From Saprolegnia diclina VS20 (taxonomy: Eukaryota; Oomycota; Saprolegniomycetes; Saprolegniales; Saprolegniaceae), in the NCBI RefSeq assembly GCF_000281045.1, contig NW_008246068.1, positions 806,755 to 870,754 on the forward strand: a stretch of 64,000 nucleotides of DNA, in the 5' to 3' direction. A model generated the notes under the pieces. It searched no databases. It was not told the DNA's origin and saw only the letters and a list, made by a program, of their open reading frames with translations. The position numbers were made by a program, and so were the translations under genes. Below, piece by piece: positions 6,814 to 55,300 of the stretch (positions are counted from its first letter, which is position 1; each line of letters begins with the position of its first letter).

Positions 6814-6995
6814 GACACAGGTCTACATACAAGTATATCATGTATAGATCAGACGAGTTGTCCACACGTTTGCATAAGCTTGTGTATAGGACAGCGTCGA
6901 TGCTCGCATGTCGTGCCATGGTGGCTGCTTAAGGTTTGGCACAGGTGAGCCAATACTGCGGGGGGGCGGGGGGGTGAAACCGTCATTCAGGGAGC
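6814..6995. other. Short intergenic spacer with G-run
   Basis: This spacer between the PPR stop and the kinesin start holds a GACGAGTTGTCC word near 6852, close to the intron dyad described elsewhere, and a G-rich tract at about 6959-6974. No gene is visible. Confidence 0.4.
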
Positions 6996-9727
6996 ATGCA
7001 AGGGGGGGCGCAAACCGTCCAAGTGAGTTGTCGCTTCCGCGGTGGCAACGACGATGCAAGTGCCGTCGGCCTCGAGTTTCCCGGCCCGACCACAGTTGTG
7101 CTCCCGAGTATGAAGGGCACGCAGTTCTCCTTTGACCGCGTCTTTCCTCCCGAGACGACTCAAGACACCATTTTTGAACACATTGGCGCCCCCGTGATCG
7201 ACGAGCTCTTGAGCGGCTACAATTGCACGATCCTCGCCTATGGCCAGACAGGTCTTACTGGAGAATATGATGACGGTGCCGCGTCACTACACACTGCGCT
7301 AGGAAGCGGCAAGACGCACACGATCCTCGGGTCCAAGACTGAAAAAGGCATCCTTCCGCGCCTCGTCCAGCGAACGTTTGAGGCAATCGCCGCGCGGCCA
7401 AATGGTTGGTTCTAATGCACGCGGGGTTCGTGAGACGTAGTTGTCTAGACGCCACGACAGAGGTGTCGACCGGTCTCTTTGAAGTGTACCAAGAAAAAAT
7501 TCAGGACCTTCTCAACCCGTCCAACGCCCACCTGCGCATCCGCGAAGACAAGTTGTCCATTTAAAAAAATACGATTAATGGGTGTGCTGTAGAGAGCGAG
7601 GCATTTGGGTGCAAGGCGCGGCCGACATCGTGGTCTCCGACCCGCCGTCGGCGCTTCGACTCGTTCAAAAAGGGCTTGCGGGCCGCTCGATGGGGGCACA
7701 CTTGATGAACGCCGAGTCGAGTCGCAGCCACTGCATCTTTATGCTCACCGTCACCCAACGCTTTTCATCCGGTCTCAAGCAAACAGGTACCAGAGCTCTC
7801 CTCTCAACATCGTGGAATGGACGCTGTAGGCAAGCTCTATCTCGTGGACCTTGCGGGCTCCGAGATGGTGCGCAAGACCGCTGCATCAGGCAAGCGCCTC
7901 GACGAAGCCAAGCACATCAACAAGGTTATACAATTGCAAGTGGTATCTGGTGTGAACAGAGACTTGCGTAGTCGCTCACTGCGCTTGGGCTCGTCATCAA
8001 CGCCCTTACGGACGGACGGTCCAAGCACATTCCATACCGGGATAGCAAACTCACGCGGCTACTTCAGGTATATCCAACTTGTCATAACGCTAGGAATAGT
8101 GTACAGACACCTGCGTAGAACTCGCTCGGGGGCAATGCAAAGACACACTTAATCCTAACCTGTTCGAGTAGTGCGACAAATTTGGTGTGTCTCTTATATA
8201 GAGGAAGGACTATATATGTAAACTAGGAAGAGACGCTCTCGACGATTCGATTTGGCGCGCGGGCGCAGCACGTGACCAACTCGCCACAAGTCAATACCGA
8301 GCGAACCATCTCCGAGTATAAGCAATTGCTACAAACCCTCGAACTCAAAGTGTGCGTCTCCAGCTTTCAGTCTATGGAAGAAGAGACAACTTGTCCACTA
8401 GTGCCGCGCTGTCGGTCTACGTTGCCTCACTCGAGAGCAAGACGACTGTGTGTCCGCGCTGCAGCTGCTCCAACTCCGCGACAAACCCGCCGCCAATGGC
8501 GCGCGCCACCAGCGACACCAACCTCCGATCGACGTGCCATGTCTGTGGCAGCAGCGACCCCGAGCTCGTGCTCTGCGACGGCAACTGCGGGCGCTTCTGG
8601 CACCCGTCTTGCCTTCCGTCGGCCAGCAACAACCCACTCGAATGCATCTGCCCCGACTGCGCCGACGACGCATACAGTCTGCAGGACGAGCTCTCGGCGC
8701 TCAAACGGGCGCTGCAGACCATCAAAGCCGATCGCGATGAGCTCGAAGAGCGCGCCAGTGTCCAAAAGCAAGTGCTTGACGTCGCCGACCACCACAATAG
8801 CTCGCTTCACCGGTACACACTCTGTACAAACTGTACCATTTGTCACCAACAGCACTGTATTCGCAGCGCGCTGGAGGAACGCGTCGTCGGCCAAGAGCTC
8901 CGCATTCAAGTGCTTTCCAACCAGCTCGAAGCCGCGAGTTTGCAGTACGCATCTGCCCAGAGAGACATGGATGCGCTGCGTACTTCGGTGACCAAGTCGT
9001 CCGAGGTCCACCAGAGAAATGCCGACGCGGCGCAAGCGGAAATCGACATTGTACGGCGGTCACTGGTCTTGGCGGAGAAGGAAAATGCTGCGCTCAAGGA
9101 CCAAGCCCACGACCTTGCCCTCCGCGCGGCCCGTAGATACCAACACCTTCTCTGTAACAGCAGGACGCCTTCTCATGGAAGGTTTCGTCGTAGAGTCGGA
9201 GAAGCGGGCGCGCGAGTGCCAAGACCAGCTCGACGCCTGTCGACTGCTCTTGGTCCAACGGGACGACGAGGCGGCGCGCCGGCACTCGGTGTCGACGTCG
9301 CCCATCAAGGTCGCGCTCTCGCCCGGCAAAATCCGGCCAGCGACCGCGATCGATATTCTCAACGACGCTCGCCTGTCGCTCCAATCCCGCGGCAACATTC
9401 AGCAGTGGTGGTCCGGCAGCGACGGTCCCCCCGAACACGCCTGGGAGCCCAAAACCAACAACGTAGCAGAAGACAGCGGTACTCTCAATGAAAGCACCCT
9501 TGATGCACGACTCACCGAGCGGCTTAGGCTCGGGCGATGGTCCAGCACGGCCGTTCAAAGCGCGGCTCGTCGGGCTGCTCACGTCGCTCCAAGAAGAGAC
9601 CGATGCGTTCAAGGATCTGGGCGACAAAATTGCCGAGCAGGCCAAGCCCAAGCTTCGAAAAGGGCGACATCGAAGCCGACTACCAGCGATGGACGACCCG
9701 CCCCTCGGCGAGGCCGTGCTGTATTAG
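6996..9727 (+). CDS. Kinesin motor protein with PHD zinc finger
   Basis: Twelve exons: 6996-7251, 7303-7404, 7449-7551, 7593-7786, 7830-7924, 7972-8067, 8119-8184, 8227-8351, 8402-8812, 8867-9132, about 9161-9478, 9528-9727. They join in frame to about 743 residues. The motor domain (about 1-330) has the P-loop GQTGSGKT at 83-90, switch I NAESSRSH, switch II DLAGSE and the closing [14 protein letters not shown]. It should therefore walk on microtubules with ATP. After it comes a PHD finger: C391-x2-C394, C404-x3-C408, H413-x2-C416, C429-x2-C432, preceded by CPRCSC. Coiled-coil follows ([20 protein letters not shown] and later segments), suggesting dimerisation. The 28-31 nt gap at 9133 is shorter than any other intron here and might be a sequencing frameshift. 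The start is the first ATG giving a normal kinesin beta-1 strand; an upstream exon is possible. The kinesin family is not assignable by eye. Confidence 0.88.
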
Positions 9728-9817
9728 CTCCACCGACCGGAATTGGACTTTTTTCTAATTGGAGACCAGCCACGATTCAACGTTGAACAAGGGTACATGA
9801 CTGTACATATATCCTAG

Positions 9818-12800
9818 CTAAAACGCGGCGCGCAAGATACTATGTCGCCGTGGCGTAGCAGGGGCCACGGTCGGCGCAAAGACAACGTGGCGACTGCCGT
9901 CATTGTCCTTTGTCGTAATCATTTTGCGCGGCTTGCCGCAGAGCACGCGCTTCTTCATATCTTCGCGCGCGGCGTTGACGCGGTTCTTGAAGGAGGCACC
10001 AGTCGTGTAGCGCAAGTAGAGGTCCCCCGTGTGCGGAATCCGTCCTTGGACCCAGCTCAGCGGCAGCTCCCAGCCAAATTGGTCGTTGAAGCGCTCGTCG
10101 ACCCAGTTTTCGCCCGGCTCAATGTCGCCGAGCTGCGCCAGCATCGATGTGACTTGATATTCTTCCCAGACGCTCAAGTTCAAGTGGTATTCCTACAGTT
10201 GTGCGGGTTTGTATCAATGTATCAACTACATATGTGCGTACCATTTCGGCAAACATGGGGTTCCACAAGTTGAGCCAGCCAATGCGGTGAATCGCCTCGC
10301 CGACATTCTCGCGTGTCCAGTCGGCCGCCAATGCAACGAGCAAGTCGTCGAGATCGAGCACGCGGTTGAGGAGCATGGCCACAATCTCGACTTGTCCGAA
10401 CGCCACGTCATGAAAGCAATGGGCGAGGCGCACCAACTGGGCCGAATGAATGCCAAACGCAGCGTCGGAAAACGTTTGTCGAACCGCTAAAAGACCATCA
10501 TTCCGTCTTGAAACATTGAAACATTGCAAGTACCGAGCTTGCGGTGCTCAAAGCCCGTGTCGGTATGGGGCGCGTGGACCACGGGCGCCACGGAGGTCGG
10601 TCTGGCTACGATCACCGCCTTCTTGCCATGTCGCTTGAGAGGAGCCGGTGGCTTCTCGACGGCGACCGGAGTCGATGCGAGTGCCGTGACGCTGACACAG
10701 AGTTGATCCAGCATCTACATTCTGTTCATTCCACTGGATGCGACCACCAAGGGACACTACGTCATCGGGAATTGCGTCGCTGCCACGTGGGATCCGCGTC
10801 GTGAGCACAAAATCAAATGCAAACGTGCCACTCGACGGCAGGCCATGGGCGCGGGAAACACTGTACGGGGCGCCATCCAGCGTTTCATTGCGAAAACATT
10901 CCCAGTTGCCTAGTCCCATAAAAATATAACTCGTAAAGTAGTTGGTGGTGGCATCGACTGCGTACCGTTCTGGCTCGTGTTGAGGCTGGCGGTCTTCTTG
11001 TTCTCGAGGCGGTCGTCGGCCGAGAGACGCACGAGCGTCGACGCCAAGCGCTTGTCGACGGGCGCGGCCAAGTCGAGCGCGTAGCGTCCATTGGGAAGCC
11101 GCGAGTCGAAGAAGAGAAGTTTCCCAGCCCGTTCCTTCAGCACTGACTGGTGCCGAAGCCGTCGCGTGCGGTTGAAAAGGACTGCGGTGTCGGCGACCCG
11201 CTGCAATAGTCTAACATGCTTATCATCCATGCGTCTACAATACAAAACTCGAGGCGTACAGGGGGGCGACGTGGGCGTGGGCCGCCTCGGCCGTCATGGA
11301 CCCGAGGAGGTACTGCGCTTGGGACGCTGTGATGTAGTGGTCGTGTAAGAAATGCTGGATGTACTTGGCACGGTCCGAGTCAAACTCGAGCTCTGAGAAG
11401 GCTTGCCAAAACACGCTGACCGCATCTGCGTAAACCACTGTCGACTACAAATCGAACGCATTGGCAATAATGTACCGGGGGCAATCTCGGTCACATGCGG
11501 CACCTGCGGCTTGTACGTAAACTCAAACCGCAGCCGGCCGTGCAGAGGGAGACGCCACGGCGTCCGTGTGCCGTCCAGCGCCAGCAGCTTCTGGACCGTC
11601 TCGGTGCCGTAGCTGCTACTGGTTGCTCGCTCAGCGCGGCCAAATACGAGCTTGGTGCTGCCCGATGTGGTGTAGGGCGGTAGTTGGTACTGCACATCGC
11701 GCCACGACGCCGCCGACGGGTATAAATTCAAGAGCCAGAGGTACTCGAACCCGCGCCAGAACGAGTCGGCATCGTCCAGATCCACCTCGACGTGGCCTAT
11801 ATGGACAAGAATCGTCCACAGTATAGCAGCCAACCATCCAAGCTACATTGTACCCAGCTGCACGGGCGCGAAGCGCGCCGGCTCAGTATGCAGGCCGCAG
11901 TCGTCGTACTGCACAGTGCGGCCTTGGGTCATCGAGAGCGGGTCGCTGTACGCGCGAAAGATGGCGCGAAGGCCTTCCGTACCAATCGGGTTTTGCGCAA
12001 TGCAGAGAATCTCGAGCGTCGTCGAGTCGGCCCACGCGCGGACAAGACTTAACGCACTCAGTGCGCCCAGCGAGTTGCCCGTGAGGTCCAGCGTGTGCAG
12101 CGTCTTGTTGTGACGCAGCGAGAGCGCGATCGCACTGGCCCCGCCGCCGCTGCCAAAGCCGTTCCACGCCGCTCGCAGGGTTTGCAGCGTCGTGTTGACC
12201 GCGAGGGCGTGGGCGAGCGCCGTGCCCGTCTTGGCGCGAAGGCAGTTCCACGACAGGTCAAGCAGCGTTAGGTGGCCGTTCGCACAGAGCATGGCCCGCA
12301 GTGCGTCGCCGCACGCATCGTCGAGCTTGTTTTTGCTCACATCTACCGCCGTGAGGCTGCGACTGCGCCCGAGGACGGCGCCAAGCGTCGTTAGCCCTTC
12401 GATCGAGAGCCTACACATCGCATTCACCATATTGTGAGAAAAATGAGAGATAATGAGAGATGATAAAAGACATCAAGACGACAGATTACCCGCAATCGGA
12501 GAGGACGAGCGTTTGGAGAACGTGATGGGCGTCGAGGAAGTCACTCAGCGCCGCCACCGTCGCCTGCTTGACTTCGTTGTTGGACAAGTTGAGCGTCAAG
12601 AGGCGTGTAAAGTCCGAGCTCTTCACCACGTTGGCGACGGCGACATCCGTGAGACGGTTCTCACGGACGACTAGCGTCTGGAGCTTGGGAATCGACGCGA
12701 GGCTAGACCCGGCATTTTTAAATATGATTAACGTTAGATAATCATTTTGGAGTCGTACCAGCTCGAGAGGGCTTCGATTGGTCGGTTACCAGCGCCGTAG

Positions 12801-13746
12801 TACGACAAGTCGATCGCGCACGCCTCGCGCTTTGGGATGATGAACGGCTCCGGCACCAAGTGCTTCTGCAGGCACGTGCGAATGTAGTCGTCCGCGCACT
12901 TGATATTGTCGTCCGTGATGTGTTCCTAGTTGTCATCGTGACATAGTGTACATTGTACGAGCCGCCTACCGAATCAGCGTCGACTTTGGTCGTACTTGCG
13001 GTGCGCGGCGCGGCGGGAGCTGTAGAGGACATGTTGACCTTGCGCAGGCGCGCCATAAAGTGCTGCTTGCCGCCCTACAACACGTTATGCGAGAGGCGAT
13101 GCAAGCAATATTGTACCCAGCCGTAGTTGTGCTGCACATCCTTGATGCTCCAGCCGGTGGTGGATGAGTTGTCTACGAGCCGAGGATCCTCATGCTGGAT
13201 ACAGTGTAGCGCAAGATAACTACGGTCCGACGCCTTGGGGGGCACGAACGAGGCGACGGTGGCCAACTTCTTCTCGTCGTCGGCCCGAGGCGTACTCGGT
13301 CGGCCTTCCAAATCCAATGGCGGATCCACAAACAAATGTTGAAAGGCCTAGAGACTTTCAGAAGAATACACCGAAGTGCGCTCTACCATGATAGCCAACT
13401 CGGTCTCGGTGCGCGGCAGCGTGCGTGTGATCATGTTCTTCTTGGACGATGCCTGATGGACCAATGGGGGGCGCGATGGCTGCCGCGGTGTCGTGGGCTG
13501 CCGAGGCGTCCTACGCACTCTTAGTTCAAGATTTACTTTCTATGTGTACCCGCGCGGTGTTGCGGGGGCTGTCGTCGCGCGCACGGCGGGAACTCTGCTC
13601 TTCAGGTGCACGTCAACTTCGGCAAGAACGCTCGTTACTGTGAGCGTCGGTAAGGCCGGGTCGAACGGCTGCGAGCGTCGCTTCACGCGGGTGGCGTGAA
13701 GAACCACCGAGGGACTCGTCGCCTTGCGGTGCGACGGCCGCGCCAT
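9818..13746 (-). CDS. Large leucine-rich repeat protein, 14 exons
   Basis: Exons, 5' to 3' on the minus strand: 13550-13746, 13387-13510, 13117-13347, 12970-13074, 12759-12925, 12490-12702, 11854-12410, 11476-11796, 11244-11437, 10966-11200, 10761-10909, 10534-10714, 10242-10486, 9818-10192. They close to 1,097 residues. A basic Pro-Thr-Ser N-terminus (TPRQPTTPRQPSRPP) leads to ribonuclease-inhibitor-type LRRs at about 255-530 (TRLLTLNLSNNEV, LTLLDLSWNCL, LHTLDLTGNSLG). The rest has repeated tryptophan-rich helical units (SVFWQAFSELEFDSDRAKY, EYQVTSMLAQLGDIEPGENW) that I cannot assign. Such LRRs form protein-binding scaffolds. The C-terminal units may be calpain-III-like or DUF4476-like, but that is a guess. 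The 10715-10760 intron has an alternative (43 nt, donor GTGGAA) that also keeps frame. Its tail lies 90 bp from the kinesin stop. Confidence 0.82.
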
Positions 13747-13818
13747 GGTTGGATTCGCAAGCTGTTCGTGTCACTGTCTATTTTAGGGCTATAGACAGGC
13801 ATCACGGGCACCAGCTTG

Positions 13819-13907
<89 letters not shown>

Positions 13908-14079
13908 TAGGGGTAGGGCATGTAAGTGTCGAGGGGGCGACGCTACGCGAATACTAGCCTGCACCGCTATGCTAGACATTCCTTTGATCCAACGACAATG
14001 GTATTGTTCTATCGAGTATCGTAGTATTTGAAATGTACAATAGCTTACACAGACGACTGGACCAGAACGACGTTCTTGT
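13747..14079. repeat. Intergenic spacer with (GATA)n microsatellite
   Basis: The gap between the LRR gene start and the next minus-strand stop contains about 22 uninterrupted GATA units at about 13819-13907. The minus strand reads as an artefactual Leu-Ser-Ile-Tyr repeat. Nothing else is recognisable apart from AT-rich flanks. Confidence 0.9.
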
Positions 14080-16303
14080 CTACAAAAGCGAGGTTGTCGA
14101 TGGCCGCGGGGCGGGTCGTCGAGGATGGGGGCCGATGTGGGGGTGCTGGTGGTTGTTGCGCTCTGGCTCCAAGACGTACGCTGTCGTGTGCGTCACATCG
14201 TACGGCTCGCCGGGCCCGAGGATGCCGTCGTCGACGAACTCGTGGCTCGACGCGCGCCCAAACGTAGTACGGAACGGGCCCCCCACCCACTTGAGTTTGC
14301 TTTTCTGCATATGACAATAAGAACTTAGTGTATCCACGATCGAACGCACCTCGTCGTCAATGACTTGCTGCTCGTACGAGCCGCGGTACGGTCCGTCGTT
14401 GACCACCGAGTAGAAGCCGCCTTGGGTTGCATCGCGAAGCCGCAATTTTTCAAACTTGGCGTGGGCGCAGTATGGTTTTTTGGCTTCTTGATCGACGAGC
14501 CGACGCACCGGCAGCGTGAACGTGGGGGCTTGCGTCGCACCGGTTTTGGGGGGTGACTAGTCATTAACAAAAACAAGAATTGACGACAAACACAAGAGAT
14601 GTATGTACGCACTTGGTTGGACGGTCGTTGCGGCGCCGCATGGGTGTGGGATAGCGCCGAGCGCAGACGTCGAGCGTAAACAGGTCTACGCAGGGCGAAG
14701 GTTTGCAGAAGCCCTGCACCGTGAGACGCACGGTTGAGTCGTCGGGGCCGCCGAGCGTGGCCGTAGCTTGGCCGTCGAGACAGCCACGGACTTGCATTTC
14801 TTGGGCGACGTACGACCTTTTGCGGTCTGATCCAGACTCATGGCAGGCAGCACTACACGTCGGTACATGTATGCTCCACACGGTGTCGAAGCGCGTACCG
14901 CTCGTGCTCTTGAACGGGCCCGTGGGCATGTTGGCGTCGGTCGGTACAGCGCCTGTGATCGATGCGACATACGTGCGGTCCACATGTTCGTGGACGCGGA
15001 TCATGTCGAACTTTGCTTTGACATAATTCGCCAAAATCGTGCTACACATCGAGATACGCGATATACAAAACTGTAAAATGTCGTACCACGTAGCAGGGTA
15101 CGCTTTGGCGACTGTAAAGTGAGCGCAGAGCGCATTGCCAAACTCGATGAGGAGTGGGCCCCGCTGGCTGTCGAGAAACACCTTGTAGCTAAGGAGATCG
15201 CATGTCAACTCCGACCAGACACTTGTTGATGGACCGGTTGCCGCTGGTGTGCGTGATTGTCTCATCGAGATCCCACTTGCTCGGACAATTGACGACGAAT
15301 TGCGCCAGCTCGAGACCCTGGAGGTACACGTGGGCGCGCTGTTCGATGCGGCCGCAGCATTGCACGTCGGCGAGTTTCGAGACCAGCGCCTACATCGCAA
15401 GTTGATAAGACAACTTGTGTGCTCTCCACGAAAAAGAGAAGCGTGTCGTACAGAGCTTGCATGGTTGTTGGGCTTGCGGGTGCCCGCACGGGCAGAGCTC
15501 GGCCGCGCGCCGTACGGGCGGTCCCGATCGCTCGTGTGCATGACAAGCCCCGTGTTGCCTGTTCATATTCCATTCCGAGAGCTCTAAGCTTGTTCAACCG
15601 TACCCTTGGGCTCCCACGTATTGTGACGGACGTTGTAGCTAAAGTAATCGCCCGTCTCGCTGTCGAGCAGCACAATGTGCGAGTTGATGTCTACCCCATG
15701 CACTCAATTGTCTAAAGTGTAGAGAGATCAATGTTTGGTACCGTTTTTGGGGGGCGGCGCGCTCGGCACGGCCCGGAGGGGGCAGCCGCGGCCGTGTCCG
15801 TTCACCGCTTGCAAGAGCTCGCCGCCCGTCGAGCAAAGGTACGCGAGGATCGCGGCGCTAAAGCCCGCACCAAAGAAGCACTTGCCCGTCATCATGCACA
15901 TCTTGAGCAGCGTGCAGAGCTACTCCCACCAGAGGTTAGTGTTCAATATTGTCCTAAAATTCGATCGCCAACTACCTTGCGCAACGGCGGGGCCCACGGC
16001 GGCATGGTCACGTCGCCATCAACAAACACAAAGTCGAGCTGGTCAAAGCGTGTGATGGATTCCGGATCCGCAGTCACCGAGTGCACTTCGTAAACGAACG
16101 CATCGAGCTCACTCCGGTGTCTCTCCTAGCTCACACACGTCTTATTGACTAAGAAATCCAAGCACACGTACGAGAATGAGCGGCGCGATCACGTCGTGCA
16201 CGTGCAGTGTGGTCAACGCCGCCTCGACGGCCGCTTTGAACTGGACGTACTTGGCGGGCGGGTCGTCTCGGGATGCGTATCCGTTCACGAGCAGCACCCG
16301 CAT
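14080..16303 (-). CDS. Conserved-looking protein of unknown function, 10 exons
   Basis: Exons, 5' to 3': 16172-16303, 15976-16125, 15742-15919, 15604-15702, 15452-15558, about 15223-15389, 15087-15188, 14609-15041, 14350-14556, 14080-14304, closing to about 599 residues. The N-terminal 120 residues alternate strands and helices (MRVLLVNGYASRDDPP, FDQLDFVFVDGDV, CMMTGKCFFGAGFSAA) in a way that recalls a glutamine-amidotransferase-like flavodoxin fold; this is inference and no catalytic triad was confirmed. The C-terminal half has two related phrases, GPFKSTSGTRFDTVW and GPFRTTFGRASSHEF, suggesting an internal repeat. The exon 6 donor is ambiguous (15222 or 15234). The 15390-15451 intron contains the GACAACTTGT dyad half-site. 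The gene shares a 58-bp divergent promoter with the IQ-WW gene. Function unknown. Confidence 0.7.
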
Positions 16304-16361
16304 CGAGGCTCGATTAGACTATAATTAGCAAGAAATAATGTTTCCCTTGATTATTCGCATA
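16304..16361. promoter_or_regulatory. 58-bp divergent promoter
   Basis: The start codons at 16303 (minus) and 16362 (plus) are separated by only 58 bp, which is AT-rich (CTATAATTAGCAAGAAATAA). Both genes must share core promoter DNA, so they are likely co-expressed (inference). Confidence 0.5.
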
Positions 16362-18282: not shown

Positions 18283-19886
<1,604 letters not shown>

Positions 19887-20326
19887 GCGTCGTCTCTGTG
19901 CGAGAAGACAACTTGGTGCGTTTTCGTTTGGCCAACCTTTTAGTCGTCACTCACGGTGCAACTGCAAAGACGTTGATCTGCGCTGCCTGCGGTGGCGGTG
20001 CTAGTATAGTCCTTGCGAACTAAATACGAGCATACCAAGCCAAATAATAATCTCGCAGTCTACGCGTCATCACACATTACATCCCTTATTTAAACTACTA
20101 TAGTAGGTCTAGTAGGTATTATTTGCGTGTACCCAACTACGTACTAGGCGGTTCTGGCTACATGTGAAGCCCTAATCTCCATTGCGCTGTCGCGTGTTGT
20201 CGCAGGACGAGGAAGGTCGAGTTGTTCGTTGCTCACTCGTCAGCCCCCGTGCCTGCAGTGCTCGAATCTCAACGTCAAAAAGTCGGCGCACCAGGGACCA
20301 AAGTCGACACGAATAAAACGTAAGAG
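19887..20326. other. Intergenic spacer between convergent ADH and RPA1
   Basis: The 440-bp gap between two stop codons holds short AT-rich stretches and a near-copy of the dyad half-site (AGACAACTTGG near 19909). Bases at 20095-20125 repeat CTAGTAGGT-like words. No coding sequence is supported. Confidence 0.4.
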
Positions 20327-27956: not shown

Positions 27957-28597
27957 ATGGCCTACTTGCTGGAAGCGCTTCCGACCAAGGCCGCGATCGA
28001 CGATGCGATCCGCGGGACCAAGGACAAGGTGCTGGTCCTGCGCTTCGGTCGCAGCAGCGACGCCGTCTGCCTCCAGATGGACGACATTGTGCGTCATCTC
28101 TACGCGATGAAATGGGCTCACCTGCCATGGCGTAGCTCGCCCGCTGCGAGGTCGAGCTCTCCAAGATGGCGCAAGTGTACACGGTCGACACGGACGTGCA
28201 GGACGTCGAGGTCTACTGCCAGTACTTTGACTTGAGCTTGATTCCGTCGACCATCTTCTTCTTCAACGGCCAGCACATGAAGGTCGACTTTGGGTACGTC
28301 GTCGTCGCCGCTTGCAACTACACCATCGTCATGCGTAGCACGCCCGACCATACCAAGTTTGTCGGCGCCTTTTATACCAAGCAAGACTGTATCGACTTGG
28401 TCGAGGTAACAACTTGTTGCCTTCCTTCCTGCAAGTCTTCCTTCCCAGGTCATTTTCCGTGGCGCGATGCATGGCAAGTACATTGTGATCTCGCCGATCC
28501 CGCACGAGCGCATTCCACAGTACACTACGATCATTCTGTCGATCGAAAATGGTCAACTTGTCATCGTAGGTACGAGCTCTTGTACAAAGATTTCTAA
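27957..28597 (+). CDS. TXNL4B: Thioredoxin-like splicing factor TXNL4B/Dim1 family
   Basis: Five exons (27957-28088, 28136-28293, 28339-28405, 28449-28519, 28570-28597) give 151 residues, matching the roughly 149 of TXNL4B. Family phrases are clear: [56 protein letters not shown] at the C-terminus. Dim1 proteins are thioredoxin folds of the U5/tri-snRNP; TXNL4B binds PRP6 and acts in pre-mRNA splicing in the nucleus. The sequence fits the TXNL4B branch better than the U5 15-kDa TXNL4A branch (inference from VCLQMDD and the length). Final introns 3 and 5 contain CAACTTGT words. The stop lies 6 bp from that of the convergent TPR gene. Confidence 0.93.
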
Positions 28598-28603
28598 AAC
28601 TCT

Positions 28604-30564
28604 TTATGAACGCAGCTCGCGACAATATTCCTCAAAGGTCGTGGACGGCAGTGGCTGGATCCGGTCTTTGGACGGCGAGGCAAGGTCGGGTCGTTGGTTG
28701 AGGAGGGCCTTGTACGCTTTGTCTTTCTGGACGGCGCCGCGCCATGCTCGCTCGACACTTGTCGGCTTGGTCGTTGGCGCCCGTGCGCGGCGTTGGTGCC
28801 GTGGCGCGACGACCCCTTCGCTTGCGCCATACTGCGCATATTGCGATACTTTGACCTAGAAAATGATGTCACGTCGACTGGTTGAGGCGGTGCTTGTACC
28901 TTGGCCTCGGCGTCGTCCGGTGCCAAGCGTGAGGCCACGAGGTAGTCTTGGTACGCCAGCTGGCTCTGGTCCATGTACCGAAAGCAGTCGCCGCGCCGAA
29001 TGAAGAACGCAGGCACCTTGTGGTTGTGTCGGATCGCCGACGAAAACTCAATTTCAGCCTTATCAAACGCGGCGCGGTTGAAGAGCTCGAGCCCAAAGTG
29101 GTACCGAATCATCGCAATTCGCGTGTGGATCTCCGTGTCGGTTGGCTGGAGCTCCCGCGCCGTGTTGTAGTCGGCAAGCGCCGCTTGGAGCTTCCCAAGC
29201 GCGCGGTAGCAGTCGCCGCGGTTGATGTAATACCGGTAGTCGATGGCTTTGCCTTCAAAGCGCGACGACGTTTCAATCTCCGACGCGATCGCCTGTTCCG
29301 AATTATGGACAACTTGTCCTCCGGACGACATCGTACCTGGTTCATGGCCGTAAGACCCGCCTCAAAGTCACCAGCCTGAATGTGCATGATGGCCATGTCT
29401 AGTTGTACATGTAGTCATCGCCACCGATAACAATCGTCCAGTGCGGCGAGGTAGTGTACCGTTGAGGATGAGGTTGCGCTGCCGGCTAATCTCGGGGTGC
29501 TCTTCTGTTGGCAGGACGTGCCGCATGTGCTCGTCAAGCTCGTCGCCAAATTGCTTGCCAAAGAAGGACCGTGATGCCCGCTCGACATCGGTGAGTGCTG
29601 CGCGGTAGTCTCGCTAGCAACATACATATTGTCAGCAACAGTGGACAACTTGTCCTATGTCGTACGAGCTCTCGAAAGACCGATGCGCGCAAAATGAGCA
29701 CTTTGGGGTCTTCCGCATTGAAGTTGATGCACGAATTGAGACAGTCGAGTGCCTTGGCAAAGTCGCGGCCCAAAATGTGGCGGCACGCCAAGTCGTGCAA
29801 GTGCTGGGACTGGTACCACATTTTTCGCTCAAAGTCCAGCACCTAGGGTCCAAGGCGTTGTCGCACTCCGACGGGGTCTATAGTCGGACCTCGGGGTGGT
29901 TGGGGCAGAGCTTGAACGCCCGGGAGATATCCGTGTTGCCTTTATCAATGAGTCCGAGCTTCCAGTGGAGCTTGGCGCGCAGCACGAGAATGTCGGCGTC
30001 GTTGGCGTCAATGCATATTGCGTGGTCAATGTCCTTGAGCGCCTTTGTCCAGAGGGTGAGGCCCAAGTACGCCATGCACCGATGGAGCCAGTAGTTGGCC
30101 TGGAGCGCGTCGAGTGCGACTGCATCTGTCAAGTAGACGATCGCCGTCGAGTACTCCTTGTCGAGAAGAAACGAGTAGCCCTAGAGTCCTCCTGTTGCAT
30201 GCTTGAAACCAATTTGCGACGCTACATGGGCGTTGAAGACAGCTGCGATCTCTTCCTTGATGGCTTGGGGCGGGTTGCTTTGGAGCGAGAGCAGCTTCTT
30301 AAAGTTGCCAATGGCCGACTAGATGTGTTGCGACATCGTCGAGTTCATTTGGCGAGAAGGGCGAACCTTGAAGTCGCAGAGCTTGGCGTACGCCGACCCG
30401 CGCGACGCGTAGAGAGTATAGTCGTCGGGGCTAATAAAACACGCCTTGTTGTAGCAAATGATCGCCTTCTCATAGTCGCCGTGCCGGACGAGGACGTCGC
30501 CCTCCATCTTCTTGGTCATGGCATCTTCATGGAGCAGCGCTTTCGGCGCCTTGACCGTGTCCAT
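28604..30564 (-). CDS. Tetratricopeptide repeat protein
   Basis: Eight exons, 5' to 3': 30367-30564, 30226-30318, 29890-30180, 29666-29842, 29460-29613, 29337-29398, 28900-29292, 28604-28855, giving 539 residues. Start ATG 30564 precedes a normal first TPR (EGDVLVRHGDYEKAIICYNK). Further TPRs are spread along the chain: ANYWLHRCMAYLGLTLWTKA, ILVLRAKLHWKLGLIDKGN, YINRGDCYRALGKLQAALAD, FFIRRGDCFRYMDQSQLAYQ. The layout, with many TPRs and a basic Pro-containing tail, resembles TTC16-type proteins; this is a loose match. TPRs act as protein-protein scaffolds. Two of its introns (29293-29336 and 29614-29665) contain perfect GGACAAGTTGTCC dyads. Confidence 0.87.
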
Positions 30565-40767: not shown

Positions 40768-40776
40768 TCGATGGCT

Positions 40777-45796: not shown

Positions 45797-46144
45797 ATGG
45801 TGCCTTTTCTAGATGCGTCGATGGGGCTAATTACAAGGCACGTTGACGAGTTGCGACTTCAGATTGGGACTCATGCCAACGGTGATTTCACCGTCCGGAA
45901 GGACGTGCGGTCGCTCGTTCGTGCAAGAGGCTTCGACGTTGTTTGGGAAGACGACGACGGCAACCTCCGTCCATACGATGGTTTTTCCATTCGATTTTCC
46001 ACCGACTCGCGAGATAGGGATCCTGTCCTGCGGGCGTTTGGCGTTGCATCGACCACCTGTGACGCGGGACGTTGTTTGCGAGGGGTAGGTGGTGCCGATC
46101 CAAAGATATATATACGTGGACGTCGTCTTTTTCTCGGGGATTAA
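45797..46144 (+). CDS. Doubtful small open frame
   Basis: This 115-codon plus-strand frame includes a protein-like stretch (RGFDVVWEDDDGNLRPYDGF) but matches no family I recognise. It could be a small gene, an exon of an unseen gene, or chance. It lies between the two small acidic-protein genes. Confidence 0.25.
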   Translation: MVPFLDASMGLITRHVDELRLQIGTHANGDFTVRKDVRSLVRARGFDVVWEDDDGNLRPYDGFSIRFSTDSRDRDPVLRAFGVASTTCDAGRCLRGVGGADPKIYIRGRRLFLGD

Positions 46145-46171
46145 ATAGAATATCGTGGTGGCGCGTTGTTC

Positions 46172-46396
46172 TTACGACAGAAAATACTGCAAGAGCCATA
46201 AATCGTCCAACAATTGGTCTCTGCTGGGCTCGCCGTCGCTCCAAGGCGGGTACTCGTCGAGCATGGTGGTACTCTCGTGGATGGGCGTTGATTTTGGGTC
46301 GGGGTACACCTGTCGGCGCACGTCCGAGTCGTTTGTTGGTACCAACGACGGCGTCTCGAGCGCCTTCTTGAGCGGTGAAATCGAGCACAGCGCCAT
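46172..46396 (-). CDS. Small protein ending LDDLWLLQYFLS, paralogue
   Basis: A 74-residue single-exon frame starting at ATG 46396. Its last residues, DDLWLLQYFLS, parallel DDAWLLEYFLS of the 44925-45224 protein, and the matching codons differ mostly at third positions, which supports real coding and common descent. The rest (SPLKKALETPSLVPTNDSD) is hydrophilic and Ser/Pro rich, with little basic character compared with its partner. Probably a diverged tandem duplicate; function unknown. Confidence 0.55.
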   Translation of the reverse strand: MALCSISPLKKALETPSLVPTNDSDVRRQVYPDPKSTPIHESTTMLDEYPPWSDGEPSRDQLLDDLWLLQYFLS

Positions 46397-46553
46397 GATC
46401 TAGCAAATTTCGCAATGATCGGTTTGTTCGATGGGATGCGGCGGGTTATTTAAAGCCGTGGGACGAACCCGCGGAAGTGCCACGTTACGCGGCCGATTCT
46501 CTCTCAAAATCCAGTTACAACGGCTGCCGTCGTCGATCGATACACCCGCGAAG

Positions 46554-47138
46554 ATGCGTGCGCTTCGTCCCACGAGTCTTGTCCTGCTCGCGCTCCTCCG
46601 ACGGCTTCTCGCCGACGACCACGCCAGCAACTGGTGTGCGGGGTTTGACGAGGTCGTCTTGACTTTCGACGGTCCGTCGCCCGAGTCCCGCGTCGGGGGG
46701 AGCCGGCTATCGCCCAACATGACCTTTAACAGCAGCGTCCTCGAAGATGCGTATGCCTTCTACCAAGTGTGTATCGCCCGCCATACACACGAGCACGCGA
46801 TCGAGGTCGACGTCGTCGCCGTCACGGGCGACACGACGCTTTTCCTATCGGCCGAGAACCCGCTACCGCAGCGCGGCCACTCGTCGTGGATTGCACAACA
46901 GCGAGGCAACGACCACGTATCGCTGCCAACGTACTTGCCTGAATTTCCCCGTGACGGCCCCCGCATGGCCCTCTATATTGGCGTCCTGGGGGCCGCCCCC
47001 GGGGTGTCCAACTTTACGCTGACCGTGGCGATCAAAGACTTGCCCGAGAACGCCGACGTTCGATCGCGGCAAGAGTACTACGACAAATCGCGCCGGGTGC
47101 TGCTCGAAACACGACGTCTCCGCCGTCGCGGCGCCTAG
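46554..47138 (+). CDS. Small secreted protein, pre-peptidase C-like fold
   Basis: A single exon encodes 194 residues. The ATG at 46554 begins a signal peptide (MRALRPTSLVLLALLRRLLA). The mature part has strands and a DTTLFLSAENPLP ... WIAQQRGNDHVSLP ... RMALYIGVLGAAPGVSNFTL order that resembles bacterial pre-peptidase C-terminal (PPC) beta-sandwich domains, which bind surfaces or carbohydrates outside cells. Two glycosylation sites (NMT, NSS) are near the start and NFT near the end. The C-terminus is basic (RRLRRRGA). The fold assignment is by pattern only. Confidence 0.65.
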   Translation: MRALRPTSLVLLALLRRLLADDHASNWCAGFDEVVLTFDGPSPESRVGGSRLSPNMTFNSSVLEDAYAFYQVCIARHTHEHAIEVDVVAVTGDTTLFLSAENPLPQRGHSSWIAQQRGNDHVSLPTYLPEFPRDGPRMALYIGVLGAAPGVSNFTLTVAIKDLPENADVRSRQEYYDKSRRVLLETRRLRRRGA

Positions 47139-47806
47139 CAGTTTGCATTCCGTAAAAATGTACGTTGCGCTATTTCTCTGATTCGGGCAGAGAGCTCTAT
47201 TGGCGGCTTGTTATCACGGCCAGTCTCGTTGAAGATCTATGCTACTCCGCCTCTTCTATTTCGAGGGCGGAGACGCAAGCGAAAGGCGTTGTGCACCGCT
47301 CTCGTCCCATCGAATGGGCGAGATGGCCTTCGACAAAAATCGCAACTGCATCTTGGCCGAGCGACGGGGCAGCGATGTCCAAATTTTATCTTGTGAACGA
47401 ATTCCGCCGAGAGATCAGCTTTTGGCGATAGATAGATCGGCGGGTCCCGTTCCGCTGAGAACTGAAATAGCAGCATATAGATTACCTAGAATCGACGTTG
47501 TCGTACCGGTAGAAGAAATGGAAGACGTCGAAGTCGAAGCTCGAGCACTCTCACCCTCGTCACGAGACGCGCTTTGAGATCCGCATGGTGCTTCCCAACG
47601 AAATCAACCTCATGAAACGCAAAAGCGCGCCTCGCCGACGACGCGGATTGGCTGCCACGATAAATGCCGGCGTGTGATTGGCGGAGTTCGTATCTGGCTT
47701 GTGATTGGCGGAGCTCGTATCTGGCTTGTGATTGGCGGAGCGCCCGTGGGTCTGGCACCAATGAAATTATCGTTCCGAGTTGGTGCGACTGCGTCAAAGC
47801 GAGAGC
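47139..47806. promoter_or_regulatory. RCL1 promoter with CCAAT-box array and 27-bp repeats
   Basis: The 670-bp gap ends in five CCAAT/ATTGG boxes at 47647, 47677, 47704, 47731 and 47758, spaced 30, 27, 27 and 27 bp. Three sit in tandem copies of a 27-bp unit (47674-47700, 47701-47727, then a partial copy) starting GTGATTGGCGGAG. CCAAT boxes bind the NF-Y complex. The array ends 45 bp before the ATG at 47807. The upstream half has no recognisable feature. Confidence 0.65.
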
Positions 47807-49040
47807 ATGAGCAAGCAGAGCAATCCGGCCAAGCGGGGCGGGTTCGCGTCCTCCTTTGCGACGTCCGGCGGGACGCTCAAGTTCCAGGGCTGCGCCCACT
47901 TTCGCCAGCGTTTGGTGTGTGCGACGCTTAGCGGCCGCCGCATTCTCATCCAAAACATCCGCGCCGAGAGCGACGAGCCGGGCATCACGGAGTTTGAAGC
48001 CAACTTTTTGCGGCTCCTCGACAACCTCACCAACGGCAGCCAGATCGAAATCAACGAAACCGGTACGTCGCTCAAGTACACGCCCGGCTTTATCGTTGGC
48101 GGGACGATCGACCACGACTGTGGCACGAAGCGCGCGATCGGCTGGTTCCTCGAACCGCTTGTCGCGCTCGCGCCCTTTGCCAAGAAGCCGCTCGTTGCGA
48201 CGCTGCGCGGTATCACAAACGACGACGTGGATGTCTCGGTCGACTCGTTCAAGGCGATCACATTGCCGCTGATCAAGGTAGCAAATCTGGGCCGACTCGC
48301 TCGATCTCATCACTTGCTAGCACTTTGGCCTTGACGAAGGCCTCGATTTCAAGGTCAAGAAGCGCGGTGCCCCGCCGCTCGGTGGCGGCGAAGTCATCTT
48401 TCGCTGCCCGATCGTGCGCCAGCTTCGGTCGGTGCACCTCATCGACGACGGCTTTATCAAGCGGATCCGCGGCGTGGCCTACTGCACGCGCGTGTCGCCG
48501 CAGACCGCCAACCGCATCGTCGACACGGGCCGTGGCATCTTCAACAAGCTGCTGCCGGATGTGTACATTTACTCGGACCACTACAAGGGCGCCGAGTCGG
48601 GTCTTTCGCCTGGCTTTGGCCTCTCGCTCGTTGCCGAGACGACGACCGGTATCGTGTTGGGGGCCGAAGCCGCGGCCACGAGTGGCAGTCTCCCCGAAGA
48701 CGTGGCCAAGACCGCGTCGCACTTGCTCTGCGAAGAGATTCAAAAGGGCGGCTGCGTCGACACGACCAACCAGTGCCTCACGCTCCTCCTCATGACGCTG
48801 TCGCCCGAAGACGTATCGAAAGTTCGCTTTGGCAAGCTCACGCCGCACAGGTATCTATTGATTCTTGCCATGTTGTTTGGCGCCGAGATTGAAGCGTCCA
48901 TTTCTAGCATTCAATTCCTGCGTCATTTGCGCGACTTCTTCGGTGTCACGTTCAAGATCAAGGCCGAGAACGAGACCAAGACCGTGCTGCTCTCGTGCCT
49001 GGGCCTGGGCTTCAAAAATTTGTCGAAAAAAGTTACTTAA
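47807..49040 (+). CDS. RCL1: RNA 3'-terminal phosphate cyclase-like protein
   Basis: Three exons (47807-48277, 48321-48850, 48908-49040) give 377 residues, close to the 373 of RCL1. RCL1 works in the nucleolar small-subunit processome with BMS1 for 18S rRNA maturation. Matching blocks: LKFQGCAHFRQRLVCATLSG, EANFLRLLDNLTNGSQIEIN, TPGFIVGGTIDHDCG, RSVHLIDDGFIKRIRGVAYC, VYIYSDHYKGAESGLSPGFG and IQFLRHLRDFFGVTFKIK. The cyclase catalytic histidine region is not obvious, in line with the non-catalytic RCL1 branch rather than RtcA. The 57-nt last intron is a multiple of three without a stop and could be read through. Confidence 0.95.
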
Positions 49041-49344
49041 ACCCACTACAATATATACAACCGACCACACGCACACAATGGAACAAGTCTGCTAAACTAC
49101 GCATTGCGACACGCTACATTATACGCGGGCAACATACACCAATGGTGTCCGCACCACAAAAGGTGGCCATGGAGCCGCCCGAGCCACAAGCACTCCGGAC
49201 CGTCCGTTTGGAATCAGATGCGACTCAGATGCAGGCCGCCAATCCAATGTCGTCGTTACAACATGTGCTTTTCGCACCACAACATGGATGTCCGCTCGTG
49301 GAATTTGGAATTGGAAATACATACATTGAGGAAATTCGCGACTA
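49041..49344. other. Spacer between convergent RCL1 and giant gene
   Basis: About 300 bp between two stop codons, AT-richer than the flanking genes, with AATATATAC near 49051. Shared 3' UTR and polyadenylation DNA is likely. No gene is seen. Confidence 0.4.
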
Positions 49345-52300
49345 TTATTTGCGGCGAGATTTCGCCTTCTCAATGTCCTTGCTCTTGGTCGGTGGCTTCT
49401 TGCGCTTGGGTTTGGGCGCGGCCTCGAGGGGTTGAATCTTCTTCCCGCCCATCTTGGATTTGATCGCAGTGCGCCCGGCCACAAGCCACTTGATAGCGAT
49501 CGCCGTCGAAGCGGCATTGAGGAAGACTGGTTGGTTGGCCCACTTGGCGCCCCGGAGCGCCGCGTCCTCTTCGTCGTCGCTGACGTTGGCGACCGCGCGG
49601 CGCTTGCCGGTTTTGCCAAACACGCGGTCCTGGCCAAGCTTGTACCACTTGAGTAGAATTGCGCGCGACGCCGCGTTGAGGTGGACGCTCCCAAAGCCGA
49701 GGGCGGCTGCGGTCTCGGCGTCGGCCATCGTTTGGTCGTTGGCACCGAGCCCGAGGGGCTGCATGCGTGCCTCTTGCTTCTGCTTGGCGAGGCAGTTGAG
49801 GCAGAGCGTCCGAAACTTCTCGTGCTTGATGAAGAACGCCTTCCACTCGGCCACGTTGAACTCGTCACTCGGGTACACCTTGTCAAACTTGTCGCCCATG
49901 ACTTCGAGCGGAATCATGAGCTCGACTTGGAGCTGGCGGCGACTGAGGCAGCTCTCGCACTCGACCTTGCGCGCGGCGTTGATGATGGGCTGCACCGCTT
50001 CGCGAAGCCGGAGGCGGCGGCGCGCTTTGGCCAGCCAGAGCCGAATGATGTCGCGGGACGGCGCCGTGAGCGAAACGGGCCCGAAATGCGGCCGGCCACC
50101 TAGTTGCAATAATGAACCTCAAGATATTGCATACGATGCAATCGTCATACTGTCGTCGTCATCGTCGTCCGACACTTGGGGGTTGAGACTGCTAATGATC
50201 TTTGAAAACTGCGTGATCAAGTACGGCCGCGCCCGCCGCAGCGTTCGGGGCGTGAGAATGTTGGGCAGCTGCTCGATGATCCACGCGCGGTTGTAGTTGA
50301 GGAACTTGTACCGAAACGTCTCGGACGTCAGACGTTGGTTCATCAAGAACGCTTCGTGCGACGCGCCTTTGAGTCGCTCGAGCTCCTCCCAGTTGGGTAC
50401 GTCCATGTTCTCGTCTTCCGGGTTGGCAATCCACATGGTCGACTCGTGCCGGAGCTTGTACAAGGCGAGCTTCCGGATCAAGTAGAGGCAGATGCGGCGC
50501 ACGCAGTAGCACGTTAGTGCCATGTACGGCACAAGCGCCAGCACCGCGGGGTCGGCAAACATATTGTATTTGTTGCGCACCTAAACAAAAAATATCAATG
50601 TATCAGTGTATCAGTCGTGACATGTCAGGATGACATACCATGATTTCGATCGCGACCACGAGCGCGAGGATCGCGAGGGTTTGGACACCGCACATGAAAT
50701 GGTACTGGGACGAAAAGCAAATCTGGTCGAGGTGCCGAAGGCCTTCTTCAATGCACTCGTCGAGGTTGTGCTCGAGGCCCTTCCAGCGCTTCTCGCGCTG
50801 GATGTAGCGGTACCGGCAGTAGACAAAGTAGTCGTAGAGCTTCCAGCCCTTGAAGAGCTCGAGCGAGTGCAAGATGAAGACGTCCGCGAGCAGGTGGTAC
50901 GAGATGATGACGATGAAAAAGTAACAGTAGTACTCGAGGTCTTGGACGCGGATGCTGTAATTGTCGGCAATGCCCGTCTCGGCCCGAAACACAATCATGA
51001 TGATGACCATGGTCGGCTGGAAGAAGAATGCGAGCGTTTCCATGGCGTACTCCATGGCGAAGTCAATGATCGGCTCGACCGTGTCCGCGTCCTCTTCACT
51101 CGCTTTGTCGCTTGCCGCCTTGTCCGAAAGCGCCTTCTTGGCGTCTTCTTCCTTCTTCTTGTTGGCTTCGTCTTCGTCGTTGTCGATCGGCTTGCCGTCG
51201 GGCCCGAGCTTCTTCGGCTTGCGCTTCTTCTTTTTCCGGACCAGAAAAATCTTGGCCAAGCGCACGACTTCCTTCCCGGCTCTCTGAAGCAGCCGGAAAC
51301 ATGCGCGCAGATGGCCAAAGATCGCGTCCAAAACCACATCAAAGTAGAGCCGATGGAGGAACGCGACGCCAAACAAAATGTAAAACGCAATCATGAACCC
51401 AAGCAAGTCGGGCGCCGCCATTGTGATCGTAGCAAAGACGACGTTGGTCGCACACTTGAGCGGACTGAGAAGGAGTCGGTCGTGCAGCATGGCCTCGCCC
51501 GCCATGTCGATGATAGGCACGAGCAGCTTGGTCATAAAGAGAATGTACCAGAGGTAATTCGGAAAGTCCTTCCAAAACGAAAACTCGACCACGACCGTGA
51601 GGAAGAGCGCTTGGAGCACACTCGCAAAGATGAAGCTCGTCCGGAGCCACGGCGTTGGTTTCCACAGCGAGTCGTCTTCTTCTGGCAAGAGCGCGTCGCT
51701 TGTCTCGGTCTTTTCTTCGGCCGCGCGCTCTGAAATCGAAATGGTCTTGGGCACGAAAATGACGGCCGCTTCGCTCATCAAGTAGCACCCGAGCAGGAGA
51801 AAACAAAAGCCCGTCCGCCCATGACGCATCGTCGTCACGAGCGCCGGGTCGAGCAAAGCAGCGTTGTACTGACTCTTGACGTTGTCGAGGAGCCAGTACG
51901 GGTACGCCCCCGGGTAGTTGTTGGAAATCGAAAACGCAAGGTCGCCGTTGAGCAAGAGGTAGAACGACCCGATGATTGCCGAGAGTGGCAGTGTCGCTAA
52001 AATCGCACCGATCGTTGGCGGCGGCGCAATCAGCGAAAGATAGCTCAAGTAGTAGAGCTTGGGCGGGTCTCGAATGCGCGTCATGAGCCTACAAAGTATC
52101 GCAACATGACAGACTGTCTTGCCCATTTCAGACAGTGTACCGATTGATGATCCACGCCATCGCACAGCCAACCCATGCGACGAGCCCCATGACGTTGAAG
52201 AGCGTGATGTACATGGACGGCTCGAACGCAAAGTTGATGAGGAGCTCGAGGTACCCAAGCGGGTGGTACTCGACGTGCAGTGCATAGTCGGTCCGCGTCG

Positions 52301-55300
52301 TGTCCACATCAAAGTTGTCGAAAATGAGCTTGACAAAAATGAGCCGCTTGAGCTGGAGCGTCACTTGGTAGTATGCAATCTCGAGTGTCATTTTGCGTGG
52401 AAAGCACTGGATCGTGCAGCCGCCTTCGATCACGTCGGCCGCCGATCGGTCGATGAGGACAGGAACAAAGATATCGCTGTTGCCCGCCGCCAGCAGTGTC
52501 CCGTAGAGCGCGCTGCCCGTCGAGTACGCTTGGTACGTGACCGGCTCGTTGACCATTTCGAAAAGCGACGTGAGCGTGCTGGCTTCAAACCAGCGCGGGT
52601 TCACGGCGACCGAGCGCAAGTCTTCTTCGTATTCGCAGGCGACGTCGCGGTAGCAGTAGTCGGCGATCGGGTCTTGCAGAATATCGACCGGCCCCACGAC
52701 GACCACGTCGTCTTGGTTGAGCAGTGGCGGGAGGGTGCGGCGAGACCACGTTGCCGGCTGCTCGGTGAGCGCGGGAAGCTGACAATGCTCGTCGCTCTCG
52801 AGCAAGTCGAAGATCGTCATGTACCGGCCATATCCACGGCAGTGCGAAAAGTATGGCAAGTACGGTAGCATAACCTAGACATCGCCTGAATCCAATACCG
52901 ATGGTCGAGACGACGAACGTACGTTGGTCATGTCGTACGAAGAATTGTCGGAGGCGAGGCCCTGGAACGTCTCGCGGTACTTGGCGACCATATCGATGGT
53001 GGTCGCGAGCGTCGAGAAGGGCGAGCTCCAGTACGCGTCCGTGGTCACCCCCGGCACTGGCGTGTCGAGCAAGTTGAGCTGTGGACTCTTCTCGCTGACC
53101 ACGTTGGTTTGGAGCACTCGACCGCGCTCGAGCTGGCTAAAGCGCGGCGGGAGGTTCATCGGGTACGGTACATTCAAGCCAATCGCGCGTCGATAGACGG
53201 CCAGGAATGCGTAATCCCGCGGCACGAGCTCCTCCTCGAACGAAATAATGGGCGAGAGCGGGCGGCTGTCGGCCACGATGCCAGCTGTGTTGTTGGCGCG
53301 ACTTGGCGACCGAATCTCAACCGACGTGGAGTTCACAAACAGGTCGGCCGCCGACGCAAAGAGACCGTACGTGATGTGAATCTCGGGCTTGATGAGCATG
53401 TCTTCCAGCGCCAAAAGGGTCAGGTTGAGCACATCGTGCTGTTGAAACGCTGTCGACGTCAAGGACGATGGCAGAAGTAGCGGCTGACGACACGGTGACG
53501 TCTCGGTCGCTGCCCCCAACGGCAGCCGCACGCGCTTGGCATTGCACACGGCATTGTTGCAGAGGCTCGGGGCGACGTAGATGGCAATTTTGAAGTGCTC
53601 GTCGTACAGCATGTCGACAGGAATGTGGCGCAGATCGAACGACAAGAGAATCTCCGAGAGCCCACGCAGCGCAAACCACCCGAGCTCCGGCGGCCACGGC
53701 CCTTCTTCCGACGCACGATACCCGCAGGGACTCGCGCTCGGTGGCGACGATGCGTACGTGAGATCCGCGCCGGTCGACGATATATGCACACCGTAGTTGG
53801 ACACGTGCACTTTGGCGGCGACGGACGCCGCGCCGTTGAGCGCCATTGGCGGCGTGCGGCACTGCACACGGCTGCCGTTGACGTACGTGGCGGGGACTGA
53901 CAAGAAGACGATCGAGTCGACGAGCCGGAACTCGCATGTGAGCTCATTCGTATCGAGAAAGTTCCGCCCGATGACAGTGAGCAACTCGCCGCCAGTCGCC
54001 GAGAGCTGAGACGGGCACGCTCGCATGACGTCGATCGTACCGTTGTGCCACCCTAAGGCACTGGCCGACGCGTTCACCGGGAGCACTTTGGTGACAACTT
54101 CGACTTCGCCCGTCGGATTCGACGTCGCCCACGAGTTGAAGATCTTGGTCTCGCCTTGAAACGTATACGTAAACTGCGGGTAGTACGACTTGGCCGGGTC
54201 CTTGTCGCAGACGCTGATTTCCGTAATACTGCAGTCGATCTGTGCGTTCGAGCCCGGGAGCGACGTGGTGCGCGACGGGCACTGGCACTCTTTCGCAGTG
54301 CCGTCGGCCGTACCTAGAGGGCAAAATGCACCGACAGGGCACATGTACCGCGTCCGCTCCGTGTCTTTGGTGCCCCGGAGACACGTGCTGCCCGGCGGAC
54401 ACAGATTGTCAAATGCTGTGGCGAGCGTCGTCTCGGCACCGCAAAAGTACCCCGCGGGGCACTCGTGCATGTATTGCATATCGAGCGTCGTGGCTTCGCC
54501 GCACACGTACCCGGACGGACAAATGATGCTCTGCGTCAGGTTGTTCATGCCTAGTTGCATACATGCCATTAGACAACTTGTCCATCAATCGCGTTGTACC
54601 TTGGACGCCGCAGACGCGCCCGGCGGGGCACGGTTCACAGTACGAAATATCGGCGACGCCAGAGTTGGGCGACCACGTGCCGGCGGGGCACAGGCGGCAC
54701 GTGATCGAGTCGGCGATCGACCGGTACGACCCTGGTGGGCAAATCTTTGGAATGTAGTTCCCGTACCCCGGGCACGTGTACCCCGCGGGGCACACTTGGC
54801 AGTTGGTGCTCGATGCAAAGACGGCAAACGTGCCGGGAAAACACAGCATTGGCGCGATCGCACCGTCCTCCCCCGAGAAAGTACCCGGGGGGGTGATGAC
54901 GGGAAACGTCGTCCCTGGTGGACAGTAGTGCCCTGGATAGCACAACGTCGCTTCCGTGGTGCCCTCGAGGCAGAACGCGCCTTCGGTGCACGTTTGACGC
55001 GACGTCGCCCCCGCTGGGACATTGGGCAGCCAATCGATCGTGAGCGGCGCTTCGATCCCCGCAAGGCAAAACGTGCCTGTCGCGCACGGGTACGGGCGGA
55101 GGGGCGAGAGCTCGGACGGGTCGAGCGTCCACGTGCCTTCGTTGCAGTAAAAGCCGGCGGGGCACAGCTGCACCGGGTGGGACAAGCCGACGGCCGAGCA
55201 CACAAAGCCGGCCGGACACAGCGTTGGCGCGGTGTTGTTCCAGCCAGGACAAATCGAGCCAATCGGACAGAGCACGCACGTGGGCTGGCCCGTCGCCGGT

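Follow-up and report, generated by a model that had tools for sequence, protein, structure and literature searches.

Symmetric words and their host genes in the window

The window, i.e., the whole 64,000-nucleotide stretch of Saprolegnia diclina VS20 DNA analysed here (C1:806755-870754), contains a kinesin gene (6996-8700), a TPR gene (28604-30564), a further gene upstream of the TPR gene and a giant gene. An excess of a 13-bp dyad, GGACAASTTGTCC, had been reported for this window by the initial annotation and was borne out: 11 matches with at most two mismatches were found, when 100 shuffles gave a mean of 1.33 and a maximum of 4. The dyads are given below without strand.

Both exact copies that had been annotated, GGACAACTTGTCC at 29307-29319 and GGACAACTTGTCC at 29643-29655, were present and belonged to the TPR gene. 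The former lay in a 44-base intron (29293-29336, minus strand) and the latter in a 52-base intron (29614-29665, minus strand), each called by the gene model and confirmed by the spliced protein. This protein was 77% identical to that of Achlya hypogyna and 73% identical to that of Thraustotheca clavata, in both cases over 98% of its length, and 76% of it matched a protein of Saprolegnia diclina VS20 with 100% identity. The kinesin gene was spliced by eye and gave an unbroken alignment to the kinesin motor over residues 2-340 and seven junctions. Hence, the introns proposed earlier for the kinesin and TPR genes agreed with the spliced proteins.

The earlier near-matches at 7546-7558, 8384-8396 and 54571-54583 each differed from the dyad by one mismatch. 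The first of them, AGACAAGTTGTCC, was located at a kinesin donor, as the word "donor" in the annotation had implied: it straddled this donor rather than lying inside the intron, since the 41-base intron (7552-7592, plus strand, obtained by splicing by eye and alignment) starts within the dyad. The copy of AGACAACTTGTCC at 8384-8396 was found near the acceptor of kinesin intron 8352-8401, which was placed by reading frame and forms the eighth junction, past the stretch aligned to the kinesin motor. The other copy of AGACAACTTGTCC, at 54571-54583, lay in an intron of the giant gene (54551-54599, minus strand) called by the gene model only. Eight introns interrupted the kinesin gene within about 1.4 kb, several of them with unusual donors (GTCTTA, GTTGGT, GTTGTC and GTTATA), and the gene apparently continues into a cysteine region, which we take to be PHD-finger-like.

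Two mismatches were present in each of the matches at 6851-6863 and 28551-28563. The gene situated upstream of the TPR gene carried the latter, GGTCAACTTGTCA, in its intron 28520-28569. Removal of this intron gave the C-terminus YELLYKDF, presumably as expected for a TXNL4B-like protein. A 17-base word, AAAATGGTCAACTTGTC, at 28546-28562 recurred on the sense strand of one other sampled intron. At 28408-28418, within intron 28406-28448, a dyad was indeed present, but it was AACAACTTGTT, in which the CAA-C-TTG core was kept and the arms differed from those of the 13-mer. The match claimed at 15409-15419 was a weaker one, only 4 bases being paired at 15411, and no sequence within two mismatches of GGACAASTTGTCC occurred at 19909.

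A second word family was also represented in the window. The direct repeat TTGATACATTGATA was located at 10212-10225 (C1:816966-816979, minus strand) in intron 10193-10241 (minus strand), and the run TGATACACTGATACATTGATAT was located in an intron called by the gene model at 50581-50638 (minus strand).

Recurrence and spacing of the words in the genome

The genome (54,150,662 bases in 169 contigs) was scanned for these words, and the reversed motif served as the control for each count. The exact GGACAASTTGTCC occurred 26 times, against 1 for the control and about 1.5 predicted by base composition. Its 11-base core, GACAASTTGTC, was found at 292 sites, when the control gave 2 and composition predicted 17. 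Further, 104 sites of AGACAASTTGTCC (72+84 minus 2x26) and 35 sites of AGACAASTTGTCT (control 0) were recorded. The outermost pair around GACAASTTGTC was therefore G..C in 26 cases, mixed in 104 and A..T in 35, compared with 37, 82 and 46 under independence, so that mixed pairs were in excess (P 0.0007). Clustering of the dyads was seen along C1, where 5 of the 21 gaps between 22 sites were shorter than 4 kb and 1.0 was expected. Additionally, a third, even-centred dyad that shares the GACAA/TTGTC arms, GACAATATTGTC, was observed at 77 genome sites (control 2).

Words enriched in introns led to different arms around an identical CAA-S-TTG centre. The resulting dyad, TATCAASTTGATA, was the commoner one, with 250 exact sites in the genome (control 0) and 166 more at one mismatch, making 416 in total (control 6); its inner part, ATCAASTTGAT, was counted 325 times (control 5). 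Thus, the dyad described initially was real, but the wider set of words, including the commoner TATCAASTTGATA, had been missed. Recurrence of the symmetric words far beyond chance was confirmed.

The spacing of the half-sites was strict in the second family. Inverted TATCAA/TTGATA pairs with spacers of 0-12 bases amounted to 297 (control 0), and 250 of them had a single S as the spacer; among the 50 such matches listed, a one-base spacer was present in 44, and it was C or G in all 44. Head-to-head GGACAA/TTGTCC pairs were found at 85 sites (control 2), with spacers of 1, 2 and 3 bases in 19, 9 and 7 of the 50 listed. The dyad centre was therefore fixed for TATCAASTTGATA and looser for GGACAA, where spacers ranged from 1 to 3. 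The TTGATA half-site was also arranged in direct repeats, which gave 341+342 matches for spacers of 0-12 bases (controls 9+14). Among the first 100 direct repeats listed, 68 had a 2-base spacer and 16 a 5-base spacer, and the 2-base spacer took 13 different forms in those 68.

The half-sites of the two families were seldom combined. The mixed dyad GACAASTTGAT was found at 55 genome sites (control 7; composition 23.5), when about 616 would be expected if the halves were freely interchangeable, given 292 and 325 symmetric forms. No base-pair covariation was detected beyond the dyad core, the first pair being limited by the choice of the sites by sequence. The flanks of the cores were unrelated, and only a core of 13-15 bases was shared.

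Location of the words in introns

Introns were called by a home-made hidden Markov gene model self-trained on about 319 kb of sampled DNA, which yielded about 300 introns with a median length of 47 bases. The model was insensitive and missed the kinesin gene at 6996-8700; because intron-rich genes of this kind were missed, its intergenic class includes hidden introns. Several further sites had good candidate introns that escaped the model, and these were left out of the counts. The comparisons of word enrichment, orientation, shared words, stem excess and whole introns covered introns of 36-90 bases.

With the motif masked, intronic scores were obtained at 23 of 52 dyad sites, compared with 21 of 312 places at a distance of 100-380 bases and 8 of 300 places taken at random; the 52 were the 53 sampled sites within one mismatch minus L006:3884. 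This result, together with the genome counts of GGACAASTTGTCC and GACAASTTGTC, upheld the earlier view that chance does not explain the clustering in introns. According to the gene model, GACAASTTGTC fell into coding DNA in 10 of 47 cases in the selected loci and in 1 of 7 cases in unselected DNA. The distance of the dyad from the donor varied from 2 to 42 bases. The words were independent of the gene strand, as the two orientations were about equally frequent. A shared function of the host genes (flagella) was considered and rejected, as inspection by eye of the proteins predicted for loci L005 to L028 revealed no common theme.

The second family was likewise intronic. When the selected GACAASTTGTC cores were masked, TTGATAC was counted 9 times in sense and 6 times in antisense in 11.1 kb of introns, i.e., 13.5 per 10 kb, compared with 1.0 per 10 kb in predicted intergenic DNA and 0.27 per 10 kb in coding DNA. 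In a larger intron sample, 20 copies were present in 16.0 kb (1.25/kb), whereas coding DNA contained 0.03/kb. Within 400 bases upstream of the predicted starts, 9 copies occurred in 43.2 kb (0.21/kb), and none was found in 25.5 kb at 400-1000 bases upstream. The upstream concentration typical of a promoter site was thus not observed for TTGATAC (1.25/kb in introns vs 0.21/kb upstream). Since the words were concentrated in introns but not confined to them, a regulatory DNA site fits better than a splicing signal.

A TTGATA word was carried by 20 of 308 introns, and 10 of these 20 had more than one; the introns with a single word showed it in sense in 5 cases and in antisense in 5. In the sampled DNA, 11 of 13 paired TTGATA elements were situated in called introns, some of them in the same intron, and the other 2 were possibly intronic. 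Of eight TATCAASTTGATA sites, 5 were intron-like at a score that no more than 5% of the 1,438 non-intron places attained, 2 were middling (27% of non-intron places reach this score) and 1 was not intron-like; taken together, they were distinct from non-introns (P 0.0003) but showed no difference from introns (P 0.28). Among five tandem TTGATA arrays, L073 and L077 looked intronic, L076 was a possible case, and L074 and L075 were not intronic. The array L074 (C1:1599624-1599744) consists of three TTGATA(C) copies with a period of 8 directly before an ATG, with no good intron. Additionally, TCAGATCTGA recurred in introns, once in the form of TATCAGATCTGATA, which points to yet another way of combining these words.

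Possible meaning of the intron words

The initial annotation had offered three meanings for the dyad: a dimer-binding DNA site, an intronic RNA hairpin and the trace of an introner-like element. The putative dimer-binding site was the best supported of them, by fixed spacing, occurrence in both orientations, direct repeats and the lack of covariation beyond the core. We proposed that the dyads are recognition sites in double-stranded DNA for putative protein dimers and arrays, a reading to which we give slightly less than an even chance. Double-stranded DNA was preferred because the antisense strand of the introns folded as well as the sense strand, other loop lengths were rare, direct repeats existed and covariation was lacking. 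As shown above, the half-sites TTGATA(C) and TTGTC(C/T) meet head to head at a single S base, TTGATA also forms direct repeats in which spacers of 2 or 5 bases prevail, and the words occupy, in both orientations and amid unrelated DNA, chiefly introns of some 47 bases. From this geometry we infer protein dimers and arrays as the readers of the words: two or more proteins that bind DNA sequence-specifically may be involved, or else paralogues that share a dimer geometry and have two specificities. Homodimers and arrays assembled on the intron words would mark or regulate gene bodies, possibly with a lesser action from directly upstream of genes. The candidate protein-binding sequences are TATCAASTTGATA, TTGATANNTTGATA and GACAASTTGTC. 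Several observations speak against this reading. An ordinary transcription factor site should not prefer introns over promoters, 2 of the 5 TTGATA arrays were without a good intron, and some GACAASTTGTC sites were in coding DNA. Moreover, the mixed dyads exceeded composition (55 vs 23.5), and the GGACAA dyad accepted spacers of 2 and 3 bases. The dyad could also fold as RNA in 19 of 29 motif introns, whose folds were more stable than those of shuffles on both strands, and the gene model behind the intron calls was home-made.

The reading of a single window may mislead, and chance or base composition was weighed as the source of the dyads; with genome counts 17 to 770 times above composition and reversed controls near zero, its probability is negligible. 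An intronic RNA stem-loop that aids splicing, e.g., by shortening the path from the donor to the branch site, would explain why symmetric dyads greatly outnumber the mixed ones, as pairing demands, and the dyad was indeed folded in the minimum-energy structure of 19 of 29 motif introns. These introns folded more stably than shuffles, but they did so on both strands, with no difference between sense (z -0.79) and antisense (z -0.97, n=29). Stems of at least 5 pairs were in excess in 123 introns (10 vs 3.0 for loop 1 and 11 vs 3.2 for loop 3); this excess was weak in the 281 introns lacking the GACAA dyad (12 vs 9.4 and 13 vs 7.6, respectively), and a general enrichment of introns in hairpins was rejected for this reason. 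Furthermore, the inverted TTGATA pairs avoided alternative loop lengths (250 of 297 had one spacing), TTGATA direct repeats were at least equally common, and compensatory pairing was seen neither in the outermost pair, where mixed pairs were in excess, nor beyond the core. Despite the 19 foldable introns, the RNA hairpin suggested initially was rejected as the main reading on the basis of spacing, strand-equal folding and missing covariation, and it appears improbable to us.

The words may be remnants of introner-like DNA transposons, i.e., transposase half-sites of elements that turned into introns, left after the rest of the element decayed. The direct and inverted half-sites resemble subterminal transposase sites, and the concentration of the words in introns also agrees with this origin. 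In 284 introns, 11-base words were common to 27 sense and 21 antisense intron pairs, compared with 10.6 and 6.3 after shuffling. However, the comparison of all 47,278 pairs of 308 introns revealed no whole-length similarity, the best local score being 22 and centred on the motif. Motif introns were also not longer than the others (median 47 vs 47, 29 vs 279 introns, P 0.94), and the donor offsets varied from 2 to 42 bases. Whole-intron copies were rejected accordingly, and the introner trace named in the initial annotation fits badly. Neutral decay of a longer element is disfavoured because the cores remained exact, 250 of them in the case of TATCAASTTGATA, while their flanks did not match; we consider such remnants unlikely. 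Template switching, slippage or another mutational process that turns words common in introns into palindromes and tandems would account for both arrangements of the same words side by side and could act on the TTGATA words frequent in introns (20 of 308). Such a process seems still less probable than the RNA stem-loop: the array spacers varied while the hexamers were exact, unlike slippage products, and neither the preference for introns over intergenic DNA nor the central S (44 of 44 single-spacer TATCAA pairs listed) is explained.

Returning to the recognition of double-stranded DNA, dimeric transcription factors, such as nuclear receptors, auxin response factors and HNF1, bind inverted- and direct-repeat sites. 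The intron words resemble these sites in that a half-site is placed head to head about a centre fixed at one base and is also repeated directly at set spacings; they differ in being concentrated in introns rather than promoters, and their factor is putative. The periodic An/Tn clusters of C. elegans are located in introns. They offer an analogy of action, being a non-coding signal in the DNA of gene bodies (PMC7725773), whereas the words described here occupy introns of some 47 bases and take the form of hexamers 2 or 5 bases apart and of a one-base dyad. Introners (Gozashti et al. 2022, PMC9860276) are also alike in being sequences shared by introns of unrelated genes in an aquatic organism, but the sharing in S. 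diclina ended at the core of 13-15 bases, with variable intron position and no extra length. The internally symmetrical introns of Hypoxylaceae have inverted symmetry within spliceosomal introns as well; there, however, the inverted repeats span 45-55 bases and the similarity extends to whole introns (PMC8469720), when the symmetry observed here spans 13 bases. TTGATA, TATCAA, TTGTC and GACAA were absent from the main text of a paper on Phytophthora promoter motifs (PMC3597505). A GACAASTTGTC string in PMC11641770 was rejected as a precedent, as it lies in an unrelated sequence labelled KSHV. In the portions of text available, none of the nearest known works (introners, Hypoxylaceae introns, An/Tn clusters and Phytophthora motifs) describes these words, and no description of such intron words was found in the open-licence literature of PubMed Central.

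A more far-reaching idea, which we put forward as speculative and rather doubtful, is that introns of this oomycete carry a code in double-stranded DNA. Its small vocabulary would comprise TTGATAC, TTGTCY and possibly further half-sites, with a fixed head-to-head and head-to-tail grammar and putative protein readers acting within gene bodies across the genome, so that introns would act as addresses at which genes are licensed or regulated as DNA, apart from splicing. If true, very small introns would be kept at least partly for signals at the DNA level, which bears on the retention of introns in compact genomes. The words form a concrete and countable vocabulary with exact spacing rules, and gene control in oomycetes is little understood.

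A word of another kind, CTCATG, was enriched on the sense strand of introns, with 27 sense copies and 1 antisense copy in 11.1 kb. It was usually placed about 10-17 bases before the acceptor and probably serves as the branch-point sequence in this species.
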